Shown here in pieces: positions 11,299 to 29,017 of a stretch of DNA of 33,988 nucleotides. Made by a program: the position numbers and the translations under genes. Position 1 is the stretch's first letter; each line of letters opens with the position of its first letter. Origin of the DNA: Clostridiales bacterium (GTDB lineage Bacteria > Bacillota > Clostridia > Lachnospirales > Lachnospiraceae); contig JAJBUA010000113.1 in assembly GCA_020860565.1 (NCBI GenBank), positions 1 through 33,988 on the forward strand, read 5' to 3'. The notes beneath the pieces are model-generated. The model saw only the letters and a list, made by a program, of their open reading frames with translations. It did not search any database and was not told the DNA's origin.

Positions 11299-11565
11299 AT
11301 CCGTGCATCCCGCTTTGAAAACGGCTCACAGGCGTTACCCTGGCAGCCGGCTCGGTTCAGGCACCCTCACGTCACACAAAGGATCCCACTTAGTGCTGCT
11401 GCATTCCTGCCCTGACACGGTTCATGAGGCTCTGTTGCGTAAGACCCAAACGTCATCACTGCTTACCAGGGGCAGCCCCACAAGACCGGATCCGGGGCGG
11501 GATATCACCCCTGCTGGAGCGGATTGCAGGTACAGGGCACCGCTATCTCCCCGGCTGCACGGAAA
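11299..11565 (-). ncRNA. ffs: Signal recognition particle RNA, large (6S/scRNA) type
   Basis: The RNA on the minus strand has the universally conserved domain IV: GTGTCAGG, then GCA-GGAA-TGC, then AGCAGCACTAAG. The GGAA tetraloop is at 11404-11407; the usual TCC/GGA closing pairs are replaced by GCA/TGC, a compensated change. The 5' CCGTGCA (near 11562) pairs with the 3' TGCACGG (near 11301), closing a molecule of about 265 nt. The upstream TGTACCTGCAATCCGCT resembles the Alu-domain part of Bacillus scRNA. The RNA binds Ffh and directs secretory and membrane proteins to FtsY/SecYEG. The predicted start lies ~65 bases before the mature 5' end, implying 5' processing as in Bacillus. Position after tadA matches Firmicute order. 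Confidence 0.95.
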
Positions 11566-18248: not shown

Positions 18249-20093
18249 ATGCGTGAATTACAGATACGTCTTACCAGCCGGATCCTCATACCGATACTTC
18301 TGATATCCCTGCTGGCAGGCGGATGCGCACCCAGACGGCCGGAACCGACAACAACTGTCGCTGCAGAATATCCGCAGGAATCCGCCGATGGATATGAACA
18401 CTACGAAGAGCAGCAGCTGGTCGAACAAAAACGTTTTTCCGAATGGGAACAGGAACTTTTCCTTGATGAAATCAGCGCCAGCCAGCTGGACCTGCATTTT
18501 CTCTTCAAAGATCCTGCTGCGCTGGGCATCGAAAAAGCAGACTCTCTTTATCCCTCTCTGTCAGAAGAAGCTCTCAGGCAGAATATCGAGAACCGGCGTC
18601 AGCTGGAAGAAGAGCTGGACTCCTTTGACCTTAATCTGCTTAATGACAGCCAGCGGTGTACGTTTCGCGTGCTGAAAAGCTATCTGGGTACGGAAAAGCT
18701 CGCGGACGGTCTGGAACTCTACGCACAGCCACTCGCCGTGACCATCGGCACACAGGCGCAGCTGCCGATCCTCCTTGCGGAATACGCTTTCTATGACCGG
18801 GACGATGTTGAGGATTATCTTGCGCTCCTTAGCGGCATCGACGACTATTACACCCAGATTCTGACATTTGAAAAGGAAAAATCCGCTGCCGGGCTTATGA
18901 TGAGCGACACAACCATCGACCACATCATCGAGTCCTGTGAAAGCTATCTGCTCGTACCCGGAGATAATTTCCTCATCGACACCTTTGACTCCCGCCTCGA
19001 TACTCTCACCGGGCTGACAGAGAAAGAAAAAGATGAATACCGTGAAAAAAATAAAGCTCTCATCGAGAGCGATTTTATCCCGGCCTACCAGCTCCTGATC
19101 GACGGGCTCCGGGAACTGAAAGGCACCGGTACCAATCCGGGCGGGCAGTCCGGCTATCCCCAGGGCCGGGAATATTATGAATATCTGGTCTATTCCGCAA
19201 CCGGCACCTCCTATTCCTCGATCGAGGATCTCCTCGAAGCGATGGAATCCTGCATGGACAACGCTTTGAGCGACATCTCACGCATCCTCAGTGAACAGCC
19301 GGAGCTGGCTGATGCGATCGACAGCTATGCATTCCGCCAGACCGAAGCGGCAGACATCATGGAGGAACTGAAGGTTCTGACAAAAGAGGCTTATCCGGAA
19401 CTCCCGGAGTGCAGCTACACCTTCAAGGACGTCCCGGAAGCGCTCCAGCTCTCCTTAAGCCCGGCTTTTTATCTGGTCTCTCCGATCGATGACTACCAGA
19501 ATAATGTGATCTATCTGAACCACAACCCCGACTACTCCTCCAACGACCTCTACACCGTCATCGCCCATGAGGGATATCCGGGACATCTGTATCAGAACGT
19601 ATATTTTCACACGCACTGCGACTCTCTGCTTCGCATGATCCTCTCCTTCCCCGGCTACAGCGAAGGGTGGGCCACCTATGTCGAGCAGGCCGCCTATCAG
19701 CTGGACAACGGACTGCAGCCGCAGATGGGCGCTCTCCTGTCAGCCAATTACATCGCAACTCTGGGATTAAGCGCCTGCCTCGATATCTATATCAATTATT
19801 ACGGCTGGAGCCGCGATCAGGTACGCGATTATCTCAAAAACTTTAACAGCAATCCGGAAGAAATCGCGGACTCCATCTATCAGACCATGATTGAAACTCC
19901 ATCCAACTATCTCTCTTATTACGTGGGATATATGGAATTTCTGAACATGGAAAATACCGCCAGAAAGCAGTTGGGAACCCGTTTTGACCTCAAATCCTTC
20001 CATACGTTTCTGCTGGATATTGGCTGTGCGCCCTTTGATGTGATTCAGCCGTATTTTACCTCCTGGCTGCAGGCGCAGCAGCTCGGGCAGTAG
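18249..20093 (+). CDS. DUF885-family putative metallopeptidase lipoprotein
   Basis: Residues 12-25 form a hydrophobic signal ending LLAGGC, with C26 the probable lipidation site, so the protein is exported and anchored outside the membrane. A Thr/Glu-rich linker follows. The 614-residue chain has the DUF885 zinc signature HEGYPGH at 440-446 and the downstream EGW (472-474), equivalent to the HExxH-type site with a distal glutamate. Relatives are predicted peptidases or carboxypeptidases, but the substrate is generally unknown. It stands alone on the plus strand, divergent from metG and convergent with the amidohydrolase operon. Confidence 0.88.
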   Translation: MRELQIRLTSRILIPILLISLLAGGCAPRRPEPTTTVAAEYPQESADGYEHYEEQQLVEQKRFSEWEQELFLDEISASQLDLHFLFKDPAALGIEKADSLYPSLSEEALRQNIENRRQLEEELDSFDLNLLNDSQRCTFRVLKSYLGTEKLADGLELYAQPLAVTIGTQAQLPILLAEYAFYDRDDVEDYLALLSGIDDYYTQILTFEKEKSAAGLMMSDTTIDHIIESCESYLLVPGDNFLIDTFDSRLDTLTGLTEKEKDEYREKNKALIESDFIPAYQLLIDGLRELKGTGTNPGGQSGYPQGREYYEYLVYSATGTSYSSIEDLLEAMESCMDNALSDISRILSEQPELADAIDSYAFRQTEAADIMEELKVLTKEAYPELPECSYTFKDVPEALQLSLSPAFYLVSPIDDYQNNVIYLNHNPDYSSNDLYTVIAHEGYPGHLYQNVYFHTHCDSLLRMILSFPGYSEGWATYVEQAAYQLDNGLQPQMGALLSANYIATLGLSACLDIYINYYGWSRDQVRDYLKNFNSNPEEIADSIYQTMIETPSNYLSYYVGYMEFLNMENTARKQLGTRFDLKSFHTFLLDIGCAPFDVIQPYFTSWLQAQQLGQ

Positions 20094-20103
20094 ATAAATG
20101 GGC

Positions 20104-20128
20104 AAAATCGTTCGATTTTTCGTTTTCT
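20104..20128 (+). terminator. Probable intrinsic terminator after the lipoprotein gene
   Basis: AAAATCG-TT-CGATTTT forms a 7-bp hairpin followed by a T-rich stretch (TCGTTTTC), 11 bases after the stop codon. It is short and AT-rich, so probably moderate in strength. It lies between the convergent genes. Confidence 0.45.
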
Positions 20129-20137
20129 TTCTATGGT

Positions 20138-21517
20138 CTATGGCCTGACAAAGCGTCCGTATCCCGGCTCTGCCCTGATCAAGTCATGCTCCATGACAAT
20201 CTTTCCTCTTACGACCGTATGCGTCACACGCCCCTTCAGCTTCTGCCCGAAGAGAGGATCAAGACCCGGTTTGGAATAAATCGGATAGGTTTCGTCCACC
20301 GTCCACTCCTCTTTCAGGTCACAGATCGTGAAATCCGCGTCGGTTCCGATGGCATTAGTACCCTTCTCCTTCCAGCCAAAGGCTCTCGCCCCATTCACAC
20401 TGGTCACCTCCACAAGCCGTTCCAGACTGAGCTTCCCGGCATTGACGGCGTCCAGAAGCAGATTTCCATAATAGTCCTCGCCAGGGACGCCCTGCGCAGA
20501 CGCAAACGGATTCTCCGGATGATAATGAACAGAAAGATGCGGAGAGTGGTCGCTCCCCAGAATATCAATCGTCCCGTCATTGACCGCAGCCCAGACCTGA
20601 TCCCAGTCCGGTTTTGCCGCATGCCCAAGCGGGATCATCGTCCGATCCGCCCGGTTATAGAGCACATCAAAATTCCGAATGCTGGAGGGAAGGATCTCGC
20701 AGCTGGACAAAATATCCATCCGTCCCTCCCGCTTCAGGAGACGGATGAGGTCAATGTATCCCGGATGCCAGGTGTGGACCGCCAGCCATTTGCAGTGATT
20801 CTTGCGGAAGTAATAGGCCAGCTGCCAGGCTCCGCCGGACATTTCCTCATCCCCATAAAGCCTGCACAGCACATGAGTAAGATCCTTTGGCGTTTCCTCT
20901 GCCTGAATGGCAGCGATGTTCCCCAGATACCAGTCCATATCCATCGGATGAATAGAGATATACTTTCCGCTTTTCGCCACCTCCGCAAAGCACTGGTCCA
21001 GCACATAAGTATCACCGCACCGGAAATTTTCTTCGAGGGGAGCCTTGTTCGATTTCATCTCCATAATTTTAAAATAAGACGCGCCCATTTGCGAAAGCTT
21101 CGGGATACTGCCCTGACGGAAGGCCAGCGGACTTGGAATCGGCACATAATCAATCACCGCTCCGCGGCTCCCACAGTCAATGGCCGCCGCAAAATCCTCC
21201 GGCGAAGCAATGCCGCGCTGCAGATTATTCGGCATGACACACACCGTTGTGACACCGCCATGAGCCGCCGCCTTTGTGCCGCTCTCGTAGTCCTCTTTTT
21301 CCTCTACGCCCGGCTCCCGGATGTGGCAGTGAAAATCAATCATTCCGGGGAGAACATACTCGCCCCGCGCGTCAATCACCCCCGCAAAATCGCTGTCTTC
21401 CTGAGAACCTGCCGCAGCGTAGAAAGCGATCTTTCCGTCCGCTGCCGCGATATCCATCGGTGTAAAAACGCCATTGTTCCAAACCATTCCATTTTTAATC
21501 AGAAGATCTGCTTTCAT
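20138..21517 (-). CDS. Dihydroorotase/hydantoinase-like cyclic amidohydrolase
   Basis: The 459-residue protein belongs to the amidohydrolase superfamily branch that opens cyclic amides (dihydroorotase, hydantoinase, allantoinase). Metal-site residues are in place: H63 and H65 (DFHCHIREPG), K150 as the likely carboxylated lysine (SYFKIMEM), H190 (SIHPMD), H248 (AVHTWH) and D323 (GSDHSPH). I take the ATG at 21517 (MKADLLIKNGMVW) because GAGG precedes it; the longer frame to 21568 overlaps the upstream gene. The substrate is not determinable. It is the last gene of the T-box operon, 26 bases after the degenerate paralogue, and no pyrimidine genes are nearby, so pyrimidine synthesis is unlikely to be its job. 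Confidence 0.85.
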   Translation of the reverse strand: MKADLLIKNGMVWNNGVFTPMDIAAADGKIAFYAAAGSQEDSDFAGVIDARGEYVLPGMIDFHCHIREPGVEEKEDYESGTKAAAHGGVTTVCVMPNNLQRGIASPEDFAAAIDCGSRGAVIDYVPIPSPLAFRQGSIPKLSQMGASYFKIMEMKSNKAPLEENFRCGDTYVLDQCFAEVAKSGKYISIHPMDMDWYLGNIAAIQAEETPKDLTHVLCRLYGDEEMSGGAWQLAYYFRKNHCKWLAVHTWHPGYIDLIRLLKREGRMDILSSCEILPSSIRNFDVLYNRADRTMIPLGHAAKPDWDQVWAAVNDGTIDILGSDHSPHLSVHYHPENPFASAQGVPGEDYYGNLLLDAVNAGKLSLERLVEVTSVNGARAFGWKEKGTNAIGTDADFTICDLKEEWTVDETYPIYSKPGLDPLFGQKLKGRVTHTVVRGKIVMEHDLIRAEPGYGRFVRP

Positions 21518-21543
21518 GACAACCTCTTTTCTATCGGAACGTT

Positions 21544-22896
21544 TCAGATCTCTTTTATGAGATTCCACGTGATATTATAATTCTCCGGTTCCCTGACTCC
21601 CTGCAGCGCGCCCTCCGTCCAGTCAAACGTCGTTCCGCCCGCAACCTCATAAAGCGGGGCGTGGATGTGGAACATCCGTTCCTTCGCGCCGCCGATCCGG
21701 CAGAACGCACGGCGGCCTCCTTTGACAACTGCGAGGATTTCCCGCATACAGGAAATGTCCTGATCCGGCTTTCCGGCAACGACCAGAAAATCGGCCTTCC
21801 CGCCCACTTTCAGTATTCCCTGCCCGGATCGGACGACATCTGCCGCGTCGGATGTGGCTGCCGCAATCGCCTCAGATGGCGTAAGACCCGCTTCGACCAG
21901 AAGCTCCATCTCCCGGATGATGGCAGTCGTGCCATCGACCGGCTCGGACGGCAAGACCCCCGTCCCGACCGCCAGCCGCACACCGGCCAGATGCGCCCGC
22001 CGGGCCACGTCAAAATGCTCCTCCCCGATCTCCGATCCCAATGTAGAGACAAGACAGGGCACGTAGCTGACACCCTTTGCAGCCATTTTCTTTAAAAGCT
22101 CATCACTGATGCGGTATCCCTGCTGGATACAGTCCACGCCCGCCTGAAGGGCGCTCCGGACAGACGGATCACCGCTCGCGTTGACCGCTGCCGGTTTTTC
22201 CGCCCCGTGGGCATGTTTGACCAACGCCTGAAGCTCCGCGTCTGACATTTCCTTCCGGTATTCGCCGCCCAGCGTTCCCAGCCGGTCTCCGCTGACCTGC
22301 ATCGTGACACCGTCCAGTCCCCGGCTCAGATGGATCCGCATCTGTGCCCGCAGAGCGTCTGTACCGCTGGCCTCAATCAGCCCATACCGTTCATGTCCTT
22401 TGCCCGCCGTCACCGCATAGATGGGGCCTGTTGCCAGAATCGACGGCCCAAAAAACATGGTTTTGGCAATAGCATTCTTCAGGGCAATATCAATATTATT
22501 GGGCATTCCCACCGCCCGGAGAGTCGTGACACCCGTGTTCAATGCTTCAGCCGCGCTGCGATAACTGAGAAATGTCCGGTAGGCAATTCCGATATTGTCC
22601 ACGTAATCGTTTGCCGCAGAAGAAAGAGTGTCTAACCGCGTGTCGGCGTCAATCAGTCCCGGCATCAGCGTATTTCTCTGGACATCAACCGTCTCATCTG
22701 CCTCGCCTGTGTAACCGCCCGCTTCGCCCAGATAAACGATTTTATCCGTCACAGACGGCACGATTTTAACCGGCGTCTCTCCATTCGCAGGCGGGATAAA
22801 ATCCTTTTGCATATGCTCTACAACAAGCGTACCCGGTTCGATAACCTGTCCGTCACCGACCAGAATCCGCGCATTTTTATAGATTGTCCTGCTCAT
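21544..22896 (-). CDS. Amidohydrolase-fold pseudoenzyme (all metal ligands replaced)
   Basis: The 450-residue protein aligns along its whole length with the product of the preceding gene (MSRTIYKNARI against MARKTYLIHARI; AVGTGVLPSEPVDGTTAIIREMELLVEAGLTP against CVGTDLLPSDPIDGTNATVREMELLVRAGLTP). Every metal-site residue of the active paralogue has changed: the two histidines of HxH are D85 and R87, the bridging lysine is T198, the next two histidines are N239 and Q259, and the aspartate is G313. The frame is intact, so it is not an ordinary pseudogene. It probably forms a complex with or regulates the active paralogue, or binds ligand without hydrolysis; this is inference. The ATG at 22896 is chosen since GGGAGG is 10 bases upstream; an ATG at 22905 is too close to it. 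Confidence 0.8.
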   Translation of the reverse strand: MSRTIYKNARILVGDGQVIEPGTLVVEHMQKDFIPPANGETPVKIVPSVTDKIVYLGEAGGYTGEADETVDVQRNTLMPGLIDADTRLDTLSSAANDYVDNIGIAYRTFLSYRSAAEALNTGVTTLRAVGMPNNIDIALKNAIAKTMFFGPSILATGPIYAVTAGKGHERYGLIEASGTDALRAQMRIHLSRGLDGVTMQVSGDRLGTLGGEYRKEMSDAELQALVKHAHGAEKPAAVNASGDPSVRSALQAGVDCIQQGYRISDELLKKMAAKGVSYVPCLVSTLGSEIGEEHFDVARRAHLAGVRLAVGTGVLPSEPVDGTTAIIREMELLVEAGLTPSEAIAAATSDAADVVRSGQGILKVGGKADFLVVAGKPDQDISCMREILAVVKGGRRAFCRIGGAKERMFHIHAPLYEVAGGTTFDWTEGALQGVREPENYNITWNLIKEI

Positions 22897-22915
22897 ATTC
22901 TGCATTCCTCCCTCT

Positions 22916-24241
22916 TTACCACTTCAGGTATGTCCCGCCGGCCAGCTCCATCCCAGGATAACCGGTGTTATATCTGCGAAGCATCAGCCCCGGCACCGAG
23001 CTCCAGATCAGGCGACAGCCCTTGGCCACCAGACACAGATTCCGCATGTCGCTGATCTGTTTGTCCGGCTCGCCCTTCACCGCTATAAAATCGCCTTCCT
23101 TCCCGGCCTCCAGCGTACCGGTAAACGCGATGGTATCCGTCAGTCTGGCGCTGTTGGACGTCGCGGCCTTAATCGCCTGCATCGGCGTCAGACCCGCCCG
23201 CACCAGAAGCTCCATCTCCCGCACTGTCGCGTTCGTGCCGTCAATGGGATCAGACGGCAGCAGATCTGTCCCCACACAGATCGTAACGCCCGCCCGGATG
23301 GCATTGCCGATGGACTGGCTGTGCGCCTCCCCGGTCTCATCCAGCTTTCGCACCTGAAATTCCGGACTCCCATGCCCCACCAGATAATGGTGGCAATTAG
23401 TCACCGAGAGAGTCGGCACCAGAAACGTTCCCCGCTCCTTCATCAGACACGCCGTCTCCCATTCCATATGATAGGCGTGCTCCACACTGTCACCACCCAG
23501 CTTTACGAATTCCTGAATGGGCTTATCGCCTCCCAGATGGGCGGCGACACGTTTGCCCGCGTCATGCGCCACTTCCACTACGGCTTCAATCTCCTCATCG
23601 GTCATCTGCTTGTCCGCCATGCCCTCATGCGCACTGGCAGCTCCGCCCGTCAGGCCGATTTTGATAAACTGTGCCCCCTTGGCAAGCTCCGCCCGGGCGG
23701 CGGCTCGGAACTGATCCGCGCCATTATACATGGTGGAGATATAGTTATTCCATGCGTGTCCGCCTACCGCGATATTCAATGCCCCGCAGGGAACGATGCG
23801 CGATGCCATCAGCATCTCATTGTCCACAGCATCCCGGATAGCATAATCGATATTATCCGGCCCGCCCGCCGAGCGTACCGTCGTAATGCCGCAGTTGAGC
23901 GACTCACAGGCCCGGCGCAGCATAACAAGGCTCCGGTATGCCACTCCCATCTCATCAAAACGATACGCCTTATACGGCATGGTCAGGCCGATGTGGCCAT
24001 GTACATTATAAAGCCCCGGCGTCAGCGTATACCCCGTCAGATCCAACACCGTGTCTGCCCGGGTGACTTCAGACGGGAAAGCCGGATAATCCCGCATCTT
24101 CCCGACAAACAGGATTTTGTCCTCTCTGCCTCCCTTTTGCGCCGTTTGGCCGGACTGAAATACCAGGATGCCATCCTCGATCGCCTGTTCCGAAACGCCG
24201 TCTATGATCCTTGCATGGATCAGATATGTTTTTCTCGCCAT
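22916..24241 (-). CDS. Amidohydrolase (imidazolonepropionase/prolidase-like branch)
   Basis: The 441-residue enzyme has a full binuclear metal set: H81 and H83 (NVHGHIGL), K194 (FIKIGLTGG), H235 (VAAHLGGD), H255 (SVEHAYH) and D326 (VGTDLLPSD). This branch includes Xaa-Pro and N-acyl-amino-acid hydrolases, and imidazolonepropionase-like enzymes that hydrolyse amide bonds of amino acid derivatives. The exact substrate is unknown. The ATG at 24241 (MARKTYLIHARII) is used because a GGAAAGG site lies upstream and it aligns with the paralogue's start. It sits 19 bases before the degenerate copy, in the T-box-controlled operon. Confidence 0.85.
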   Translation of the reverse strand: MARKTYLIHARIIDGVSEQAIEDGILVFQSGQTAQKGGREDKILFVGKMRDYPAFPSEVTRADTVLDLTGYTLTPGLYNVHGHIGLTMPYKAYRFDEMGVAYRSLVMLRRACESLNCGITTVRSAGGPDNIDYAIRDAVDNEMLMASRIVPCGALNIAVGGHAWNNYISTMYNGADQFRAAARAELAKGAQFIKIGLTGGAASAHEGMADKQMTDEEIEAVVEVAHDAGKRVAAHLGGDKPIQEFVKLGGDSVEHAYHMEWETACLMKERGTFLVPTLSVTNCHHYLVGHGSPEFQVRKLDETGEAHSQSIGNAIRAGVTICVGTDLLPSDPIDGTNATVREMELLVRAGLTPMQAIKAATSNSARLTDTIAFTGTLEAGKEGDFIAVKGEPDKQISDMRNLCLVAKGCRLIWSSVPGLMLRRYNTGYPGMELAGGTYLKW

Positions 24242-24314
24242 ATTCCGTTTCCTTTCCTGCATCTGTCTGCGCTATGCGCCGACGATGCGCACATTCCGCA
24301 TCTGCGTGCCCTGC

Positions 24315-25355
24315 TTACTTGTTCAAATCCGTCAGGATAATGCCCTTGTACCTCGGAGAGGTTCGTTCCAGCTCATAGCACTCCCCCTCCGGGGTGGGAT
24401 ATTGTTCCAGAAAACTGCGAATGGCCTGCATGTCGTCATCCATCAGGTCAAACTGCAGCGTCCGGACATTAGAAGCTACATGCCTGGAATTTCTGGTTCC
24501 CACCATCACCGCGCCGACGCTCTTCTGCCGGAGGATATACTGCGTGGCCACATTGGCAATCGTCACCTCGTGCCGATCCGCAATCTCCTTAAGGACAACC
24601 AACAGCTTCTGGAGGCCGTCCCAGCCCAGGGAATCCTCAATAATCTGCATATATTTCACCTGGGAACGGGTCTCCGGCGCCTCATATACCTTACCCATAT
24701 ACCGTTCATCCAGAAAGCCCCCGGCCAGCGTCCCGTAACAAAACGTAAAAATCCCATGCTCGGCACTGTAATCCAGGAGCGTCCGTTCCGGGCGGCGGTC
24801 AAACATCGAATACTGTGCCTGATTGGAAACGACAGGAATACCGGCGTCCACCATCATCTTCAGCCGCTCCGTATCCATGTTGCACATGCCGATGTTGCGG
24901 ATTTTTCCTTTCTCCTGCAGTCTCACCAGATCAAACACGGTGTCCATCATCCCCGGCACCTCAAAATCCCACCAGTGGAACTGAATCAGATCCAGCCTCT
25001 CCCGGTGCATCCGTTTCAGCGACCGGTCCACAATCCGCTCGGTATACTCCCTGTTGATCACCGGCAGAACGGCCTTGTCCGGAACGAATTTGGTATGCAC
25101 CTGGATATCCTCCTCCCGGTAATTGCCGTCGCGTTTGAGTTCCAGAACAAATTCTCCGATGATTTCCTCCACACCGGTATAGATATCCGCGCAGTCAAAC
25201 GTCGTAAAACCCTGCTCCACCAGCATGTGGAACCCCCGCAGCGCATCCCTGATGTCCAGATGTCCCTGAAGGCAGTGTTCCGCGGAAAGCTGCCAGCAGC
25301 CATTGATGACCCGGTTAAAGGTATAACCGTTTTGAAAATGATTTTTCTGTTCCAT
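24315..25355 (-). CDS. Aldo/keto reductase
   Basis: The 346-residue NAD(P)H-dependent oxidoreductase has the AKR catalytic tetrad D54 and Y59 (FDCADIYTGVEE), K89 (VHTKFVPD) and H127 (LIQFHWWD). The later segments GIPVVSNQAQYSMFDRRPE and VGAVMVGTRNSRHVASNV fit the barrel and the cofactor phosphate site. The WHWD-type histidine surroundings are like other bacterial AKRs acting on unidentified aldehydes or ketones. A strong GGAGGAGG site precedes the ATG. It lies 20 bases after the permease gene, so it is surely in the same operon. Confidence 0.9.
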   Translation of the reverse strand: MEQKNHFQNGYTFNRVINGCWQLSAEHCLQGHLDIRDALRGFHMLVEQGFTTFDCADIYTGVEEIIGEFVLELKRDGNYREEDIQVHTKFVPDKAVLPVINREYTERIVDRSLKRMHRERLDLIQFHWWDFEVPGMMDTVFDLVRLQEKGKIRNIGMCNMDTERLKMMVDAGIPVVSNQAQYSMFDRRPERTLLDYSAEHGIFTFCYGTLAGGFLDERYMGKVYEAPETRSQVKYMQIIEDSLGWDGLQKLLVVLKEIADRHEVTIANVATQYILRQKSVGAVMVGTRNSRHVASNVRTLQFDLMDDDMQAIRSFLEQYPTPEGECYELERTSPRYKGIILTDLNK

Positions 25356-25375
25356 ATCTATCCTCCTCCTGCAAA

Positions 25376-26674
25376 TTATCGGATGCCGATCATGGCAAAT
25401 ACAATAGCGATTACGGTTGCAATGGTTGTGTTGAGCACGGTCGTTACTGCCACATGCCGGTAGCCCTCCTTATGAGAGACATTGCAGGCATTCAGCGTCA
25501 GAACTACCGCGCTGTTGTGCGGCAAAGAGTCAAAGGTCAGAGACGACGCGCAGATCACCCGGCAAAGGGAAGCCGGGTTGCCGCCCATAGCCAGCAGCCT
25601 CTCGCTGAAGCTCTGAAGCACAAACTTGACGCCGCCGGTCGCAGAGCCGGAGACTGCTGCGATCACTGCCACACAGATAAAGGCGAAAATATAAGGATTG
25701 CCGCCGGAAACCTTTTCCAGACCGCCCAGAAGCAGATTGTATCCGGGCACCGCCGTGACAATACTGCTGAAGCCGATGATCGCGCAGGTCGACATGACGG
25801 ACATGGAACTTTTCGCCGCTTTATTGAGTGTCCGGGTCACCCCATCCACGCCGCCAAGGCGCCGGAAGAACAGAACCATCGCGACAACCGCTCCCAGATA
25901 GAGAGAGGCGTAAGCGGGAACCCCGAACAGGTTCAGCGCGACCAGCACCACTCCCAGAGGAAAGATCACCAGCATCGGATGCGGAAGCCCCTCCCTGTCC
26001 AGGTTGACCTCAAAGGACTCCCCCGGGAGCGGCACAAAATGTTCGCCCCGTTTTCTGGCTTTCTCTCCCTGGACGTAGAGATATCCGGCATTCATCACAA
26101 ACAGGAACACCGAGAGAACAATACCTGTCACCGGCCCTGCCGCCGCCGGAACGCCGAACGCCTCCGTCGTCAGGACGTTAGCCGTGGTGGTCACCCCGGG
26201 AAGGACCTGTTCCGATACACAGGCACCCAGCACACACGCGGGAATCAGATTACGCGGGATATCGCCCACCTTAAAGAACGCGCAGGCAATCGGATAAACC
26301 GTAAAAATAATGACAAACACATTGATGCCGCAAAATACCAGAATCCAGGATACGGTAAACACCGCCACCACAATGGCTCTGGCGCCGAATTTTTTGATAA
26401 TGGCATTTGCGATGGACTCCGTCAGGTCACTCTGCTCCAGAAAGCATCCCAGCAGCTGTCCGCCCAGGAACAGGGGAAACATACTCGTCACCGAACCGGC
26501 CACGCCGCCAAGATACGTCGTATAGCCGTCCAGCAGCCCCACGCCTCCGGTCGCCGCCACAAGGAAAGCCGCCACGCTTGCCAGAATGATGAGACTGACA
26601 CTTTTGAGTGAGCCCACCACGACAAACACCAAAGCCAACAGGATGCCAATCAAACTGATCAGTTCTGTATTCAT
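25376..26674 (-). CDS. GntP-family (gluconate/organic-anion:proton) permease
   Basis: The 432-residue protein has about twelve membrane spans and GntP-family character: an N-terminal pair of helices (ISLIGILLALVFVVVGSLKSVSLIILASVAAFLVAATGG), SMFPLFLGGQLLGCFLEQSDLTESIANAI, and a C-terminal SSLTFDSLPHNSAVVLTLNACNVSHKEGY. The family carries sugar acids, hydroxy acids and other small organic anions by proton symport. Its place before an aldo/keto reductase and amidohydrolases suggests it imports the operon's substrate, plausibly a carboxylated amide such as an N-acyl or cyclic amino acid. An AGAAGGAG site precedes the ATG. Confidence 0.85.
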   Translation of the reverse strand: MNTELISLIGILLALVFVVVGSLKSVSLIILASVAAFLVAATGGVGLLDGYTTYLGGVAGSVTSMFPLFLGGQLLGCFLEQSDLTESIANAIIKKFGARAIVVAVFTVSWILVFCGINVFVIIFTVYPIACAFFKVGDIPRNLIPACVLGACVSEQVLPGVTTTANVLTTEAFGVPAAAGPVTGIVLSVFLFVMNAGYLYVQGEKARKRGEHFVPLPGESFEVNLDREGLPHPMLVIFPLGVVLVALNLFGVPAYASLYLGAVVAMVLFFRRLGGVDGVTRTLNKAAKSSMSVMSTCAIIGFSSIVTAVPGYNLLLGGLEKVSGGNPYIFAFICVAVIAAVSGSATGGVKFVLQSFSERLLAMGGNPASLCRVICASSLTFDSLPHNSAVVLTLNACNVSHKEGYRHVAVTTVLNTTIATVIAIVFAMIGIR

Positions 26675-26818
26675 AATTTTTCTCCTTCTCGTATGGTTGG
26701 AATATCGGATCGGTTACCAGACCCGTTTCCTTTTGCCTGCCGCAAAGAACGACGCCATTGTGCGTCGTTTGCCCGGACGACCTCAGGATCAGGACTTACC
26801 GCCTGGGCAAACACCAGA

Positions 26819-27151
26819 TTATCCATCCAGCGGAACAATGGTGCATTCCCCGTGGCTCTGTCTGCGCACACGCGTCCTGGTAATCCGGAACCTGGCGCCA
26901 CAGTTAGGATCCGGACAGGCAATATCCGCATCCGTGTACATCCAGTCATGCGGATCCCGAACCCGCTGTTTCGCGGGCAGAATCGGCAGAAGAGCCGCCA
27001 GCGAATACATGGAAAACGAATTATTTTCCGGAAAGACCAGATTTTCCCCTTCCACCAGAAAATAATCGCCCGCCCGGTGGCTGCATACCATCGGCCGGTC
27101 CGTCGCAATCACCTCTACCTTCAGATCATAAATTTCAAAGCTGTCATCCAT
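26819..27151 (-). CDS. Small TIGR04076-like protein
   Basis: The ATG at 27151 has a near-perfect AGGAGGGA site; an upstream in-frame ATG at 27199 lies inside the T-box terminator and is rejected. The 110-residue product fits the TIGR04076 layout: an opening strand (YDLKVEVIATDRPMVCSHRAGDYFLVEGENLVF), a middle helix (SFSMYSLAALLPILPAKQ) and a closing CPDPNCGARFRITRTR at 79-94 with two cysteines. The function of that family is unknown. It is the first gene downstream of the T-box. The 144 bases before the permease gene contain an AACGACGC/GCGTCGTT inverted repeat (26748-26769) without a T-run, perhaps an mRNA-stabilising hairpin. Confidence 0.75.
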   Translation of the reverse strand: MDDSFEIYDLKVEVIATDRPMVCSHRAGDYFLVEGENLVFPENNSFSMYSLAALLPILPAKQRVRDPHDWMYTDADIACPDPNCGARFRITRTRVRRQSHGECTIVPLDG

Positions 27152-27167
27152 TCGTTCCCTCCTAAAC

Positions 27168-27455
27168 AAAAAAACTGCCCATGAAGAAAAAATCTTCAAG
27201 GACAGGTATATTCCTGCGGTGCCACCTTGTTTGACATTATATCAACGTCCGCCTCAACGGATGCCATCACATCCCTGGCTGATAACGGCAGCCTTCTCCG
27301 TCTCCACTACTGCAATCTCCTGCCGGAAATCCCTTCGCTTCACCCTCCGAGACCCACTTGCTGTTGCTGTCACCGCCCGGCTTCCACCATCCCGGGTTCG
27401 CTGTATGGCCGTCTCTCAGCATATCTTCCTCATCAGCGGTTTGATATATAAAACT
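27168..27455 (-). promoter_or_regulatory. T-box riboswitch (tRNA-sensing leader)
   Basis: On the minus strand the T-box core AAGGTGGCACCGCAGG is present. The antiterminator (27197-27229) has helix CAAGG/CCTTG, the 7-base bulge TGGCACC and helix GCAGG/CCTGT. The competing terminator (27168-27205) pairs CTGTCC with GGGCAG and TGAAGA with TCTTCA, followed by seven T. Upstream, GAUGGUGGAAG capped by CCCGG/CCGGG (27376-27396) is the stem I distal loop, and CGGCAG/CTGCCG (27286-27325) is the likely stem II with an AGUA S-turn. The variable bulge base is C, predicting G73 on the tRNA; in bacteria that usually means Asn, Asp, Gln, Glu, Ser or Trp. I could not fix the specifier codon by hand. Uncharged tRNA would switch on the genes from 27151 leftwards. 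Confidence 0.93.
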
Positions 27456-27461
27456 GGAAAA

Positions 27462-27490
27462 ATTATATCACAATTTAGGCAAAATGGCAA
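27462..27490 (-). promoter_or_regulatory. Promoter of the T-box operon
   Basis: On the minus strand TTGCCA (27485-27490) and TATAAT (27462-27467) are spaced 17 bases, with an extended -10 TG one base upstream of the -10. The predicted start at about 27455 fits a leader of ~300 nt. Confidence 0.75.
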
Positions 27491-27679
27491 CTTCTTTTCG
27501 CAAATACTACAGAACCAGAACATTGCATCATTCCAATCATTACTACCCGCAAAAATCTGAAAATCTTTATACTATCTTAATATCATCCCCAATTGCTTTA
27601 CCCCATTTTTAAACCAGACTTCGTATAATAATCTCAACATTGAAAACAGATCATTACTCAGCGCAAAGGAGGTGAACCC

Positions 27680-29017
27680 ATGGAAGATTACCTGCGCAGA
27701 AAAAAACATTTTACTTCTTTCCAGATCATCCTCATGGGATTTGCGGGCGTGATCCTCATCGGTACGTTTTTCCTCCTGCTCCCGCTTTCTTCAAGGAACG
27801 GGGAGTCGGCCTCCTTTCAGGAAGCGCTTTTCACTTCTGTCTCCGCCGTCTGTGTGACGGGACTGGTCGTGCGGGACACCGCCGTCTCCTGGTCCGGATT
27901 CGGGCAGGCTGTCATCCTGGTTCTGATCCAGATCGGCGGCATGGGCGTCATCACGGTGGCTGCCGCGCTTACCTGCTTTTCCGGGCGCAGAGTATCCCTG
28001 ATGCAGCAGAGCACGATGCAGGAAGCAATCGCGGCGCCGAAGCTGGACGGCATGGTCAGGCTGACGACATTTATCATTAAAGGGACGTTTTTGATTGAAA
28101 GTATCGGGACGCTTGTTATGATGCCGGGATTCTGCCGGGATTATGGACCGAGAGGGATCTGGATGGCGGTATTTCATTCCATCTCCGCTTTCTGCAATGC
28201 GGGATTTGACCTCATGGGTACTGCGGACAGATCGTATGCTTCGCTTACCGCCTACGCCGCCAATCCCGTGATTAATATCACGGTGATGCTTCTCATCATC
28301 ATCGGCGGGATCGGTTTCCTGACCTGGGAGGATATCTGCGGCAACGGACTTCGCTTTTCCCGATACCGGATGCAGAGCAAAGTAATCCTGACAACGAGCC
28401 TGCTGCTTATCCTGCTCCCGGCGGCATACTTTTACCAATACGAATTCTGCGGTCTCCCGCTTGCTCAACGGCTTTTCTATTCCCTTTTTCAGTCCGTCAC
28501 TCCGAGAACCGCGGGATTCAATACCGCTGATCTGACCGAACTTTCCGGAGCGGGACAGTCCGTCGTCATCGCTCTGATGCTCATCGGCGGCTCCCCCGGC
28601 TCTACGGCGGGAGGCATGAAGACAACAACACTGGCCGTACTTCTGGCAAACGAGGTTTCCGTCTTTTTAAGAAAAGAATCCCCGCAGATGTTCGGACGCA
28701 GGATCGAACCCGACACGGTGCGAAACGCGGCGACGATCGGAATGATGTATCTGGCGCTGTTTTTCGGAGGAGCCCTGATCATCAGCATATCCGAGGGACT
28801 GCCGATGGGCATCTGTCTCTTTGAAACCGCATCAGCTGTCGGAACTGTCGGCCTGACGCTCGGCATCACACCCGGACTCGGCGCTCTCTCCCAGATGATT
28901 TTGATTGTGCTGATGTTCTTCGGCCGGGTCGGCGGTCTTACATTGATCTACGCGGCACTATCCGGAAGACGTGTCAATGTATCCCGGCTGCCGCAGGAAA
29001 AGATCATGGTTGGATAA
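27680..29017 (+). CDS. ktrB: TrkH/KtrB-family potassium channel subunit
   Basis: The 445-residue membrane protein has the fourfold M1-P-M2 repeat of K+ transporters. The four pore-loop filters each keep their glycine: AVCVTGLVV, AFCNAGFDL, TPRTAGFNT and AVGTVGLTL. Length and lack of extra N-terminal helices fit KtrB rather than the longer Gram-negative TrkH. With the cytosolic RCK ring (next gene) it forms a Na+- or H+-linked K+ uptake system. A GGAGGTG site precedes the ATG. It faces away from the T-box operon; the intergenic region has a TATAAT at 27624 but no -35 at proper distance. A c-di-AMP (ydaO-type) riboswitch was not seen. Confidence 0.93.
   Translation: MEDYLRRKKHFTSFQIILMGFAGVILIGTFFLLLPLSSRNGESASFQEALFTSVSAVCVTGLVVRDTAVSWSGFGQAVILVLIQIGGMGVITVAAALTCFSGRRVSLMQQSTMQEAIAAPKLDGMVRLTTFIIKGTFLIESIGTLVMMPGFCRDYGPRGIWMAVFHSISAFCNAGFDLMGTADRSYASLTAYAANPVINITVMLLIIIGGIGFLTWEDICGNGLRFSRYRMQSKVILTTSLLLILLPAAYFYQYEFCGLPLAQRLFYSLFQSVTPRTAGFNTADLTELSGAGQSVVIALMLIGGSPGSTAGGMKTTTLAVLLANEVSVFLRKESPQMFGRRIEPDTVRNAATIGMMYLALFFGGALIISISEGLPMGICLFETASAVGTVGLTLGITPGLGALSQMILIVLMFFGRVGGLTLIYAALSGRRVNVSRLPQEKIMVG

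Follow-up and report, generated by a model that had tools for sequence, protein, structure and literature searches.

The contig JAJBUA010000113.1 of a Clostridiales bacterium (assembly GCA_020860565.1; Lachnospiraceae), a relative of known gut Clostridia, was analyzed from position 1 to 33,988, and this 33,988-nucleotide stretch is called the window throughout. Between positions 20138 and 27490, it contains a T-box riboswitch leader followed by six co-directional minus-strand genes, encoding a TIGR04076 family protein, a GntP-type permease, an aldo/keto reductase (AKR), two paralogous amidohydrolase-family proteins (AH1 and AH2), and a cyclic-amidohydrolase-type enzyme, with intervening gaps of 144, 20, 52, 10, and 26 bases. 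An earlier annotation made from the letters alone (the sequence-only reading) had proposed that a complete T-box governs a permease and hydrolases able to release an amino acid from an amide, N-acyl, or cyclic precursor. Its operon-like gene row (one strand, gaps of 10-144 bases) and its six gene families were borne out, the families by Pfam and NCBIfam matches, only narrowly in the case of the permease. The features, in the direction of transcription, are as follows.

27462..27490, minus: sigma-A-type promoter, TTGCCA-17-TATAAT with an extended TG (11/12 consensus matches)
27195..27445, minus: T-box riboswitch leader, tryptophan class (RF00230, and grouping with the trp-type leaders of the genome)
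27354..27356, minus: specifier codon UGG (Trp), followed by the purine G27353, which closes the specifier bulge (consensus structure of nine leaders)
27221..27224, minus: T-box bulge UGGC, complementary to the 3′ end of a tRNA whose discriminator is G (from the sequence)
27168..27205, minus: intrinsic terminator, which shares sequence with the 3′ half of the antiterminator (fold of -17.1 kcal/mol, then seven T)
26819..27151, minus: TIGR04076 family protein, 110 aa (NCBIfam TIGR04076, 63.2 bits; cut-off 33)
25376..26674, minus: GntP-type permease, 432 aa (Pfam PF02447, 24.1 bits; cut-off 22.5)
24315..25355, minus: aldo/keto reductase, 346 aa (Pfam PF00248, E 2.7e-64)
22916..24262, minus: amidohydrolase AH1, 448 aa, metal ligands complete (PF01979, E 4.9e-34)
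21544..22905, minus: AH2, 453 aa, paralogous to AH1, metal ligands absent (ligand alignment, dN/dS)
20138..21517, minus: cyclic-amidohydrolase-type enzyme of the hydantoinase/allantoinase/dihydroorotase group, 459 aa from the ATG (PDB 1gkr, motifs)

An Infernal search of 421 bases with the Rfam T-box model RF00230 matched the leader at 27195-27445 over the whole model (1-219), with 64.8 bits and an E-value of 5.9e-14. The match, together with the promoter, the UGGC bulge, and the terminator, agrees with the complete leader that had been described from the letters. The elements expected of a T-box are thus present: a full-length match, a specifier loop, a UGGN bulge, and a terminator that competes with the antiterminator sequence. 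The score lies below the Rfam gathering score of 93, which counts against the assignment and causes a default Rfam scan of the window to omit the leader. A genome-wide search (125 contigs, 2.8 Mb) returned nine T-boxes, among which the operon leader ranked eighth by score; the other leaders include those of leuA (125.9 bits), a TRAP carrier (122.4), trpX (112.7), thrS (110.8), pheS (104.1), trpE (74.2), and trpB (73.6), and the general model gives the trp leaders no lead over the non-Trp leaders. The gathering threshold was not taken as defining a T-box, because the trpE and trpB leaders also fall below it and because it has been judged too strict for this class of RNA (PMC12452182). Nine leaders from the operon and its relatives were aligned, and the RNAalifold consensus contained 57 base pairs, of which 16 showed at least one double change preserving the pair. 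The consensus includes the terminator and not the antiterminator, which was read from the sequence; since its core is invariant across the nine leaders, the antiterminator receives no covariation support here.

The specifier bulge terminates in GUGGG ahead of the lower helix, and the UGG is constant in all nine aligned leaders. According to the TBDB rule, the specifier is read preferentially at bases 2-4 counted back from the bulge end, and UGG occupies this "+0" position in each of the nine. The T-box bulge reads UGGC in three and UGGU in six, a mixture in line with the TBDB figure that 46% of Trp T-boxes carry UGGU against a G73 tRNA. In the same genome, the discriminator base is G73 in tRNA-Trp(CCA), A73 in tRNA-Val(CAC), and U73 in tRNA-Gly(CCC), so that the UGGC of the window is compatible with Trp alone among the three reading frames. 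Two other specificities, valine (GUG frame) and glycine (GGG frame), were rejected, as UGGC would be left unpaired with A73 of tRNA-Val and with U73 of tRNA-Gly, and the structure places UGG at the standard position. The leader therefore combines UGG at the specifier position with a bulge compatible with G73 of tRNA-Trp. By reading of names and specifiers, UGG is also found in the leaders of the genome that precede TrpE-, TrpB-, and TrpX-like proteins, and four leaders beyond the aligned nine likewise read UGG. In Streptococcus suis, reporter assays and mutants established a trpX T-box with the same UGG specifier and UGGC bulge (PMC9382623).

A covariance model (R1) was built from the nine operon-type leaders. 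R1 scored the trp-type leaders at 103.2 (trpB), 101.5 (trpE), and 99.3 bits (trpX) and the non-Trp leaders at 62.6 (leuA), 49.1 (TRAP), and 41.1 bits (thrS), and did not match the pheS-type and asnS/aspS-type leaders (L005, L009). A tree built from 17 leaders set the nine, along with the trpE, trpB, and trpX leaders, apart from the other five leaders of the genome, with a support of 0.996 (FastTree) and 96 (ultrafast bootstrap). Of 299 genomes of the family, R1 matched 180 at an E-value of 1e-30 or better, six candidates per genome being scored under stricter filters, and the best 30 loci were examined. Six of these 30, all upstream of TIGR04076 or NhaC genes, exceeded 190 bits: the window and G086, which both belong to the training set of R1, and four new loci. 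The remaining 24 scored 121 to 144 bits and head tryptophan-type genes: TrpE-like in 16 cases, TrpB-like in four (three only about 31% identical), TrpX-like in two (about 34%), and, by Pfam only, TrpP in one and a glycosyltransferase-3 family protein read as TrpD in one. R1 thus selects tryptophan-type leaders outside the operon set, as all 24 such loci attest, some of them by weak similarity. The leader belongs to the tryptophan class, and, judged by its sequence and relatives, it is almost certainly a tryptophan-controlled T-box.

The leader is conserved with the operon. Eight close orthologous loci of the permease (at least 76% identity) were found, including the window, and six of them have a T-box: the window, G020, G017, G003, L109 (an Oscillospiraceae metagenome-assembled genome), and L114 (Oscillibacter CAG:155). 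The search for similar gene sets behind a T-box, suggested with the sequence-only reading, therefore produced five further loci, in two other gene orders. In G020 and G017, the leader stands directly before the permease, and the order is T-box-GntP-AH1-AH2-cyclic hydrolase, without a reductase. In G003, L109, and L114, it is T-box-TIGR04076-AH-GntP-AKR, and the window itself has T-box-TIGR04076-GntP-AKR-AH1-AH2-cyclic hydrolase. Permease orthologues in operons behind such a leader are 77-94% identical. As a control, R1 was applied to 30 GntP-family loci of the relatives (29 places, among 57 matches listed), and three orthologous places alone had a leader inside the locus; a fourth orthologue, in G003, has its leader farther upstream. 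This control could miss a non-Trp T-box, since R1 missed two of the five non-Trp leaders of the genome itself.

AH1 carries the complete set of metal ligands (HxH, Lys, two His, and Asp), as do all nine aligned proteins of its type. Its nearest PDB entries, both by sequence and by a Foldseek search with its predicted model, are 3mtw, the best match, and 2qs8, the second, with about 26-30% identity across most of the chain; the AlphaFold model is mediocre (62), and the Foldseek result confirms the family and no more. The title of 3mtw names a Lys/Arg carboxypeptidase, and the 2qs8 enzyme is described as a dipeptidase for hydrophobic C-terminal residues, Trp included (PMC11342369). The AH1 group thereby fits the release of a C-terminal amino acid. 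The cut-off of 500 for the Xaa-Pro dipeptidase model NF051886 was reached neither by AH1 (208.5) nor by AH2 (151.1). All five AH2 proteins compared lack the HxH, the Lys, both His, and the Asp, the last being replaced by Glu in three and by Gly in two. The ratio of nonsynonymous to synonymous substitution (dN/dS) of AH2 was 0.07-0.13 in three comparisons (0.072 against G020), and that of AH1 was 0.03 in two, the comparison of A. colihominis with Angelakisella having been excluded for AH1 because its codon alignment was thrown out of register by a stop lying upstream of the start. As the ligands are missing yet the sequence is constrained, AH2 is most likely a conserved pseudoenzyme rather than a decaying gene. 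The two paralogous amidohydrolases of the sequence-only reading are therefore both present, and only the first of them retains its metal ligands.

The cyclic hydrolase retains its metal-ligand motifs. It scored below the cut-off of each of the best 25 of the 55 NCBIfam models that it matched (dihydroorotase, allantoinase, and dihydropyrimidinase types), and its best PDB match is 1gkr (E 9.4e-36), an L-hydantoinase which we take to be that of A. aurescens. An A. aurescens hydantoinase is given as L-selective toward indolylmethylhydantoin (PMC4297307). Metal-dependent bile salt hydrolases (PMC13081902, a 2026 preprint) were set aside, as they belong to a different Pfam family. The PF02447 match of the permease spans residues 6-207 of 432 alone and passes the gathering score narrowly, and two NCBIfam GntP models matched it far below their cut-offs. 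The reductase has the D, Y, K, and H of what is presumably the usual AKR catalytic tetrad. For the TIGR04076 protein, an AlphaFold model built from four sequences was unusable (mean pLDDT 45), and a sequence search of the PDB gave no convincing relative (best E-value 0.51). A redox or iron-cluster role has been guessed for this family (PMC8667426).

These observations suggested a mechanism in which uncharged tRNA-Trp, as it accumulates, would turn on the six-gene operon through a transcriptional tryptophan T-box. The GntP-type permease would import a tryptophan-containing or tryptophan-yielding compound, from which metal-dependent amidohydrolases would free tryptophan. AH1 may cut an N-acyl-Trp or Xaa-Trp amide, AH2 serving as a partner without catalytic activity, and a cyclic amide (an indolylmethyl hydantoin-like ring, for example) may be opened by the hydantoinase-type enzyme. 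The TIGR04076 protein and the reductase would make up a further Trp-regulated module, mobile in its own right, with perhaps a redox or accessory role. That the operon responds to Trp starvation, imports a Trp conjugate or cyclic derivative, and hydrolyzes it to tryptophan has, in our estimation, about an even chance of being correct. A fuller version is offered tentatively: a dedicated clostridial route of Trp salvage, in which the T-box would control a GntP carrier of a Trp conjugate, AH1 with an obligate pseudoenzyme partner, and a cyclic-amide hydrolase, and in which the TIGR04076/AKR pair would be exchangeable between an NhaC and a GntP carrier.

Several observations weigh against a route of this kind. 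Carriers of the GntP family generally transport sugar acids and similar anions. The family leaves the side chain preferred by AH1 unfixed, since 3mtw releases Lys or Arg, and ochratoxinase, a relative of AH1, is inactive on N-acetyl amino acids (PMC11342369). It was also considered that proteins expressed during starvation should be poor in Trp, an expectation contradicted by a Trp content of 0.93% in the operon proteins versus 0.78% in 12 neighbors. To these are added the T-box-less relatives, with their not specifically aromatic aminotransferase, and the structured spacer, all described below.

Another possibility is that the operon is controlled by tryptophan without releasing it. The permease would then take up a precursor or co-substrate (indole, anthranilate, or a keto or hydroxy acid relative), and the reductase would be the key enzyme. 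This alternative, which we regard as unlikely though deserving of attention, agrees with the preference of GntP-type carriers for organic anions, and it draws on the separate occurrence of the TIGR04076 and AKR genes. In seven genomes (G020, G011, G086, G804, G163, G192, and G815), the pair lies behind a UGG leader without a GntP or amidohydrolase gene; an NhaC-type transporter gene adjoins it in all seven as well as in G019, G014, and G017, being in two pieces in G086 and cut by the end of the locus in G014 and G017. No T-box was found with Rfam at the intact copies of G019 and G017, and the upstream sequence that would hold a leader is missing in L118 (G014) and nearly so in L161 (G348). The genome of the window has a second copy of the pair, decayed by deletions, on contig 124 (L123) beside an NhaC-like gene. 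Because the pair occurs without amidohydrolases, hydrolysis is not common to the entire Trp-linked set. However, the T-box of G020 and G017 directly heads the permease and the hydrolases without a reductase, which places the hydrolytic step itself under the control of Trp.

In the leader tree, the T-box of the window joins the permease leaders of G020 and G017 and not the TIGR04076-AKR leaders, with a support of 0.984 (FastTree) and only 73 (ultrafast bootstrap). This grouping suggests that the TIGR04076 and AKR genes were inserted into the permease/hydrolase operon in the window. The link of these two genes to tryptophan and to a carrier is drawn from comparative evidence alone. NhaC carriers are listed as tyrosine T-box targets in the Wels survey (PMC2494555). 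A near-perfect palindrome, TTATCACTGT-N8-ACAGTGATAA, was observed in the promoter region of the T-box-less TIGR04076-AKR copies L120 (G019) and L123 (G000:C124, 22091-22118); it occurs at a single place in the genome of the window and may serve an alternative regulator as its operator.

Alternatively, the operon might serve the general use of peptides or N-acyl amino acids, the Trp T-box having been recruited as a starvation signal for substrates that are not Trp-specific. The relatives in which no T-box was found speak for this. At L110 (Angelakisella) and L112 (Anaerotruncus colihominis DSM 17241), the order is AH1-AH2-GntP-class-I aminotransferase-cyclic hydrolase, with a gene for a YheO-like regulator upstream; in G345, where the permease is 50% identical and R1 gave no leader, a divergent YheO-like gene accompanies AH-GntP-aminotransferase. 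NCBIfam does not assign the aminotransferase of these relatives specifically to aromatic substrates, and its nearest PDB entries are 1gd9, named for aspartate, and 1dju, named for aromatic substrates. Side-chain preference also varies among the relatives of AH1. Against such general use, the nine aligned leaders and four more all read UGG, the nine share one lineage with the trp leaders, and the specifier agreed with function in the verified cases of a survey (PMC2494555); we consider this alternative rather unlikely. A YheO-like PAS_6/HTH_22 regulator gene was seen beside T-box-less AH-GntP-aminotransferase operons at L110, L112, and L162, and the YheO-type regulator in place of the T-box amounts to a swap of control systems over the same enzymes.

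The six genes are very probably carried on one transcript, to judge from their arrangement and the signals around them. A consensus scan of 20000-27700 on both strands called nine promoter-like and nine terminator-like sites, compared with 5.6 and 6.4 in shuffled sequence; the promoter at 27490-27462 was the best, the other eight scored 9/12, and no internal promoter above 9/12 was called in the operon. The sequence-only reading had named a terminator and a separate promoter after the TIGR04076 gene as evidence against its proposal, and neither was called in the 144-base gap. For terminators, this silence is weak evidence, because the scan also misses the terminator of the T-box itself; the gap contains no T-run of four bases or longer. 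The spacer (26675-26818, minus) folds at -51.7 kcal/mol, a value obtained without a shuffle control, and the strong hairpin, standing without a T-run between the TIGR04076 and permease genes, is a point against a continuous unit. That the T-box governs TIGR04076 alone, with the downstream genes as separate units, is suggested by this structured gap but is highly improbable, given the scan and the missing T-run, the leader directly before the permease in G020 and G017, and the leader that heads TIGR04076-AH-GntP-AKR in G003, L109, and L114. The folded spacer may mark the joint of an insertion or tune downstream expression. Beyond the operon, the next gene encodes a DUF885 protein on the opposite strand.

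With these alternatives weighed, scavenging from an amide or cyclic precursor, as proposed in the sequence-only reading, is a good inference and no more than that, because the TIGR04076 and AKR genes belong to a separate module and two close relatives have no T-box; tryptophan is the amino acid to which the leader points.

Three other elements were seen in the course of the analysis. In the genome of the window, a T-box scoring above the Rfam cut-off (L002; G000:C62:10835-11094, minus) precedes a gene for a TRAP-type solute-binding protein, DctP-like by reading; TRAP carriers do not appear in the list of T-box-controlled transporters of the Wels survey (PMC2494555). In the Oscillospiraceae metagenome-assembled genome, a T-box of 90 bits (L109:3985-4230, plus) precedes genes for a type III glutamine synthetase and a GATase/phosphoribosyltransferase-type protein; its bulge ends, by reading, in GAAGACCA, for Thr (ACC) or Asp (GAC), neither being obvious for these genes. 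The window also contains a bacterial large signal recognition particle (SRP) RNA (11301-11562, minus; 179.9 bits).

The T-box mechanism is known, and the new part is the gene content under its control. The view that known families stand here in an unfamiliar combination was supported by the family matches and by a literature search on T-boxes in connection with amidohydrolases, GntP, and NhaC with tryptophan, and on TIGR04076, which found no description of such a T-box operon within a coverage that excluded the Vitreschak 2008 and Gutierrez-Preciado 2009 surveys and TBDB. Among the papers found, amidohydrolases were mentioned in a reference title, in a guanidine case, and in the case of a Clostridioides difficile lysine riboswitch. 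The 2008 survey gives seven T-box-controlled carrier families, GntP not among them (PMC2494555), and the GntP-type permease would extend this list. The leader also assigns an amino acid to a GntP-type permease, an amidohydrolase with its pseudoenzyme partner, a hydantoinase-like enzyme, and TIGR04076. These findings suggest that the operon is an unreported means of obtaining tryptophan from compounds in which it is bound or modified. Tryptophan is a resource over which hosts and microbes compete, and a testable question is raised: which bound forms of tryptophan can such bacteria use when free tryptophan is scarce?

Among known systems, hydantoin utilization, which pairs a hydantoinase with a carbamoylase, resembles the operon in that a cyclic hydrolase from one and the same broad group (L-hydantoinase 1gkr) stands beside a second amidohydrolase; it differs in that the cyclic hydrolase here lies below the cut-offs of the best 25 of 55 models, and no M20-type carbamoylase or racemase was found among the six genes with Pfam and NCBIfam. 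The group of the 2qs8 Xaa-Hyd dipeptidase, the 3mtw carboxypeptidase, and ochratoxinase resembles AH1 in sequence, fold, and metal ligands, whereas AH1 sits in a T-box operon beside a pseudoenzyme paralogue. In C. difficile, yfcC is preceded by a lysine riboswitch and linked with a gene for an M20D amidohydrolase (PMC11477304); in both systems, an amino acid sensor RNA precedes a carrier gene linked to an amidohydrolase gene, and the C. difficile system differs in its class of RNA, its carrier, its hydrolase family, and its amino acid, lysine. The closest likeness in control is to the T-boxes of the trp operon and trpXYZ (RF00230; S. suis trpX), with which the leader shares the UGG specifier, the UGGC or UGGU bulge, the antiterminator/terminator pair, and, for the trp leaders of its own genome, one lineage. 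The targets of those T-boxes, in contrast, are biosynthesis or an established amino acid transporter, whereas the one described here heads a GntP-type permease, amidohydrolases, a reductase, and a TIGR04076 protein.

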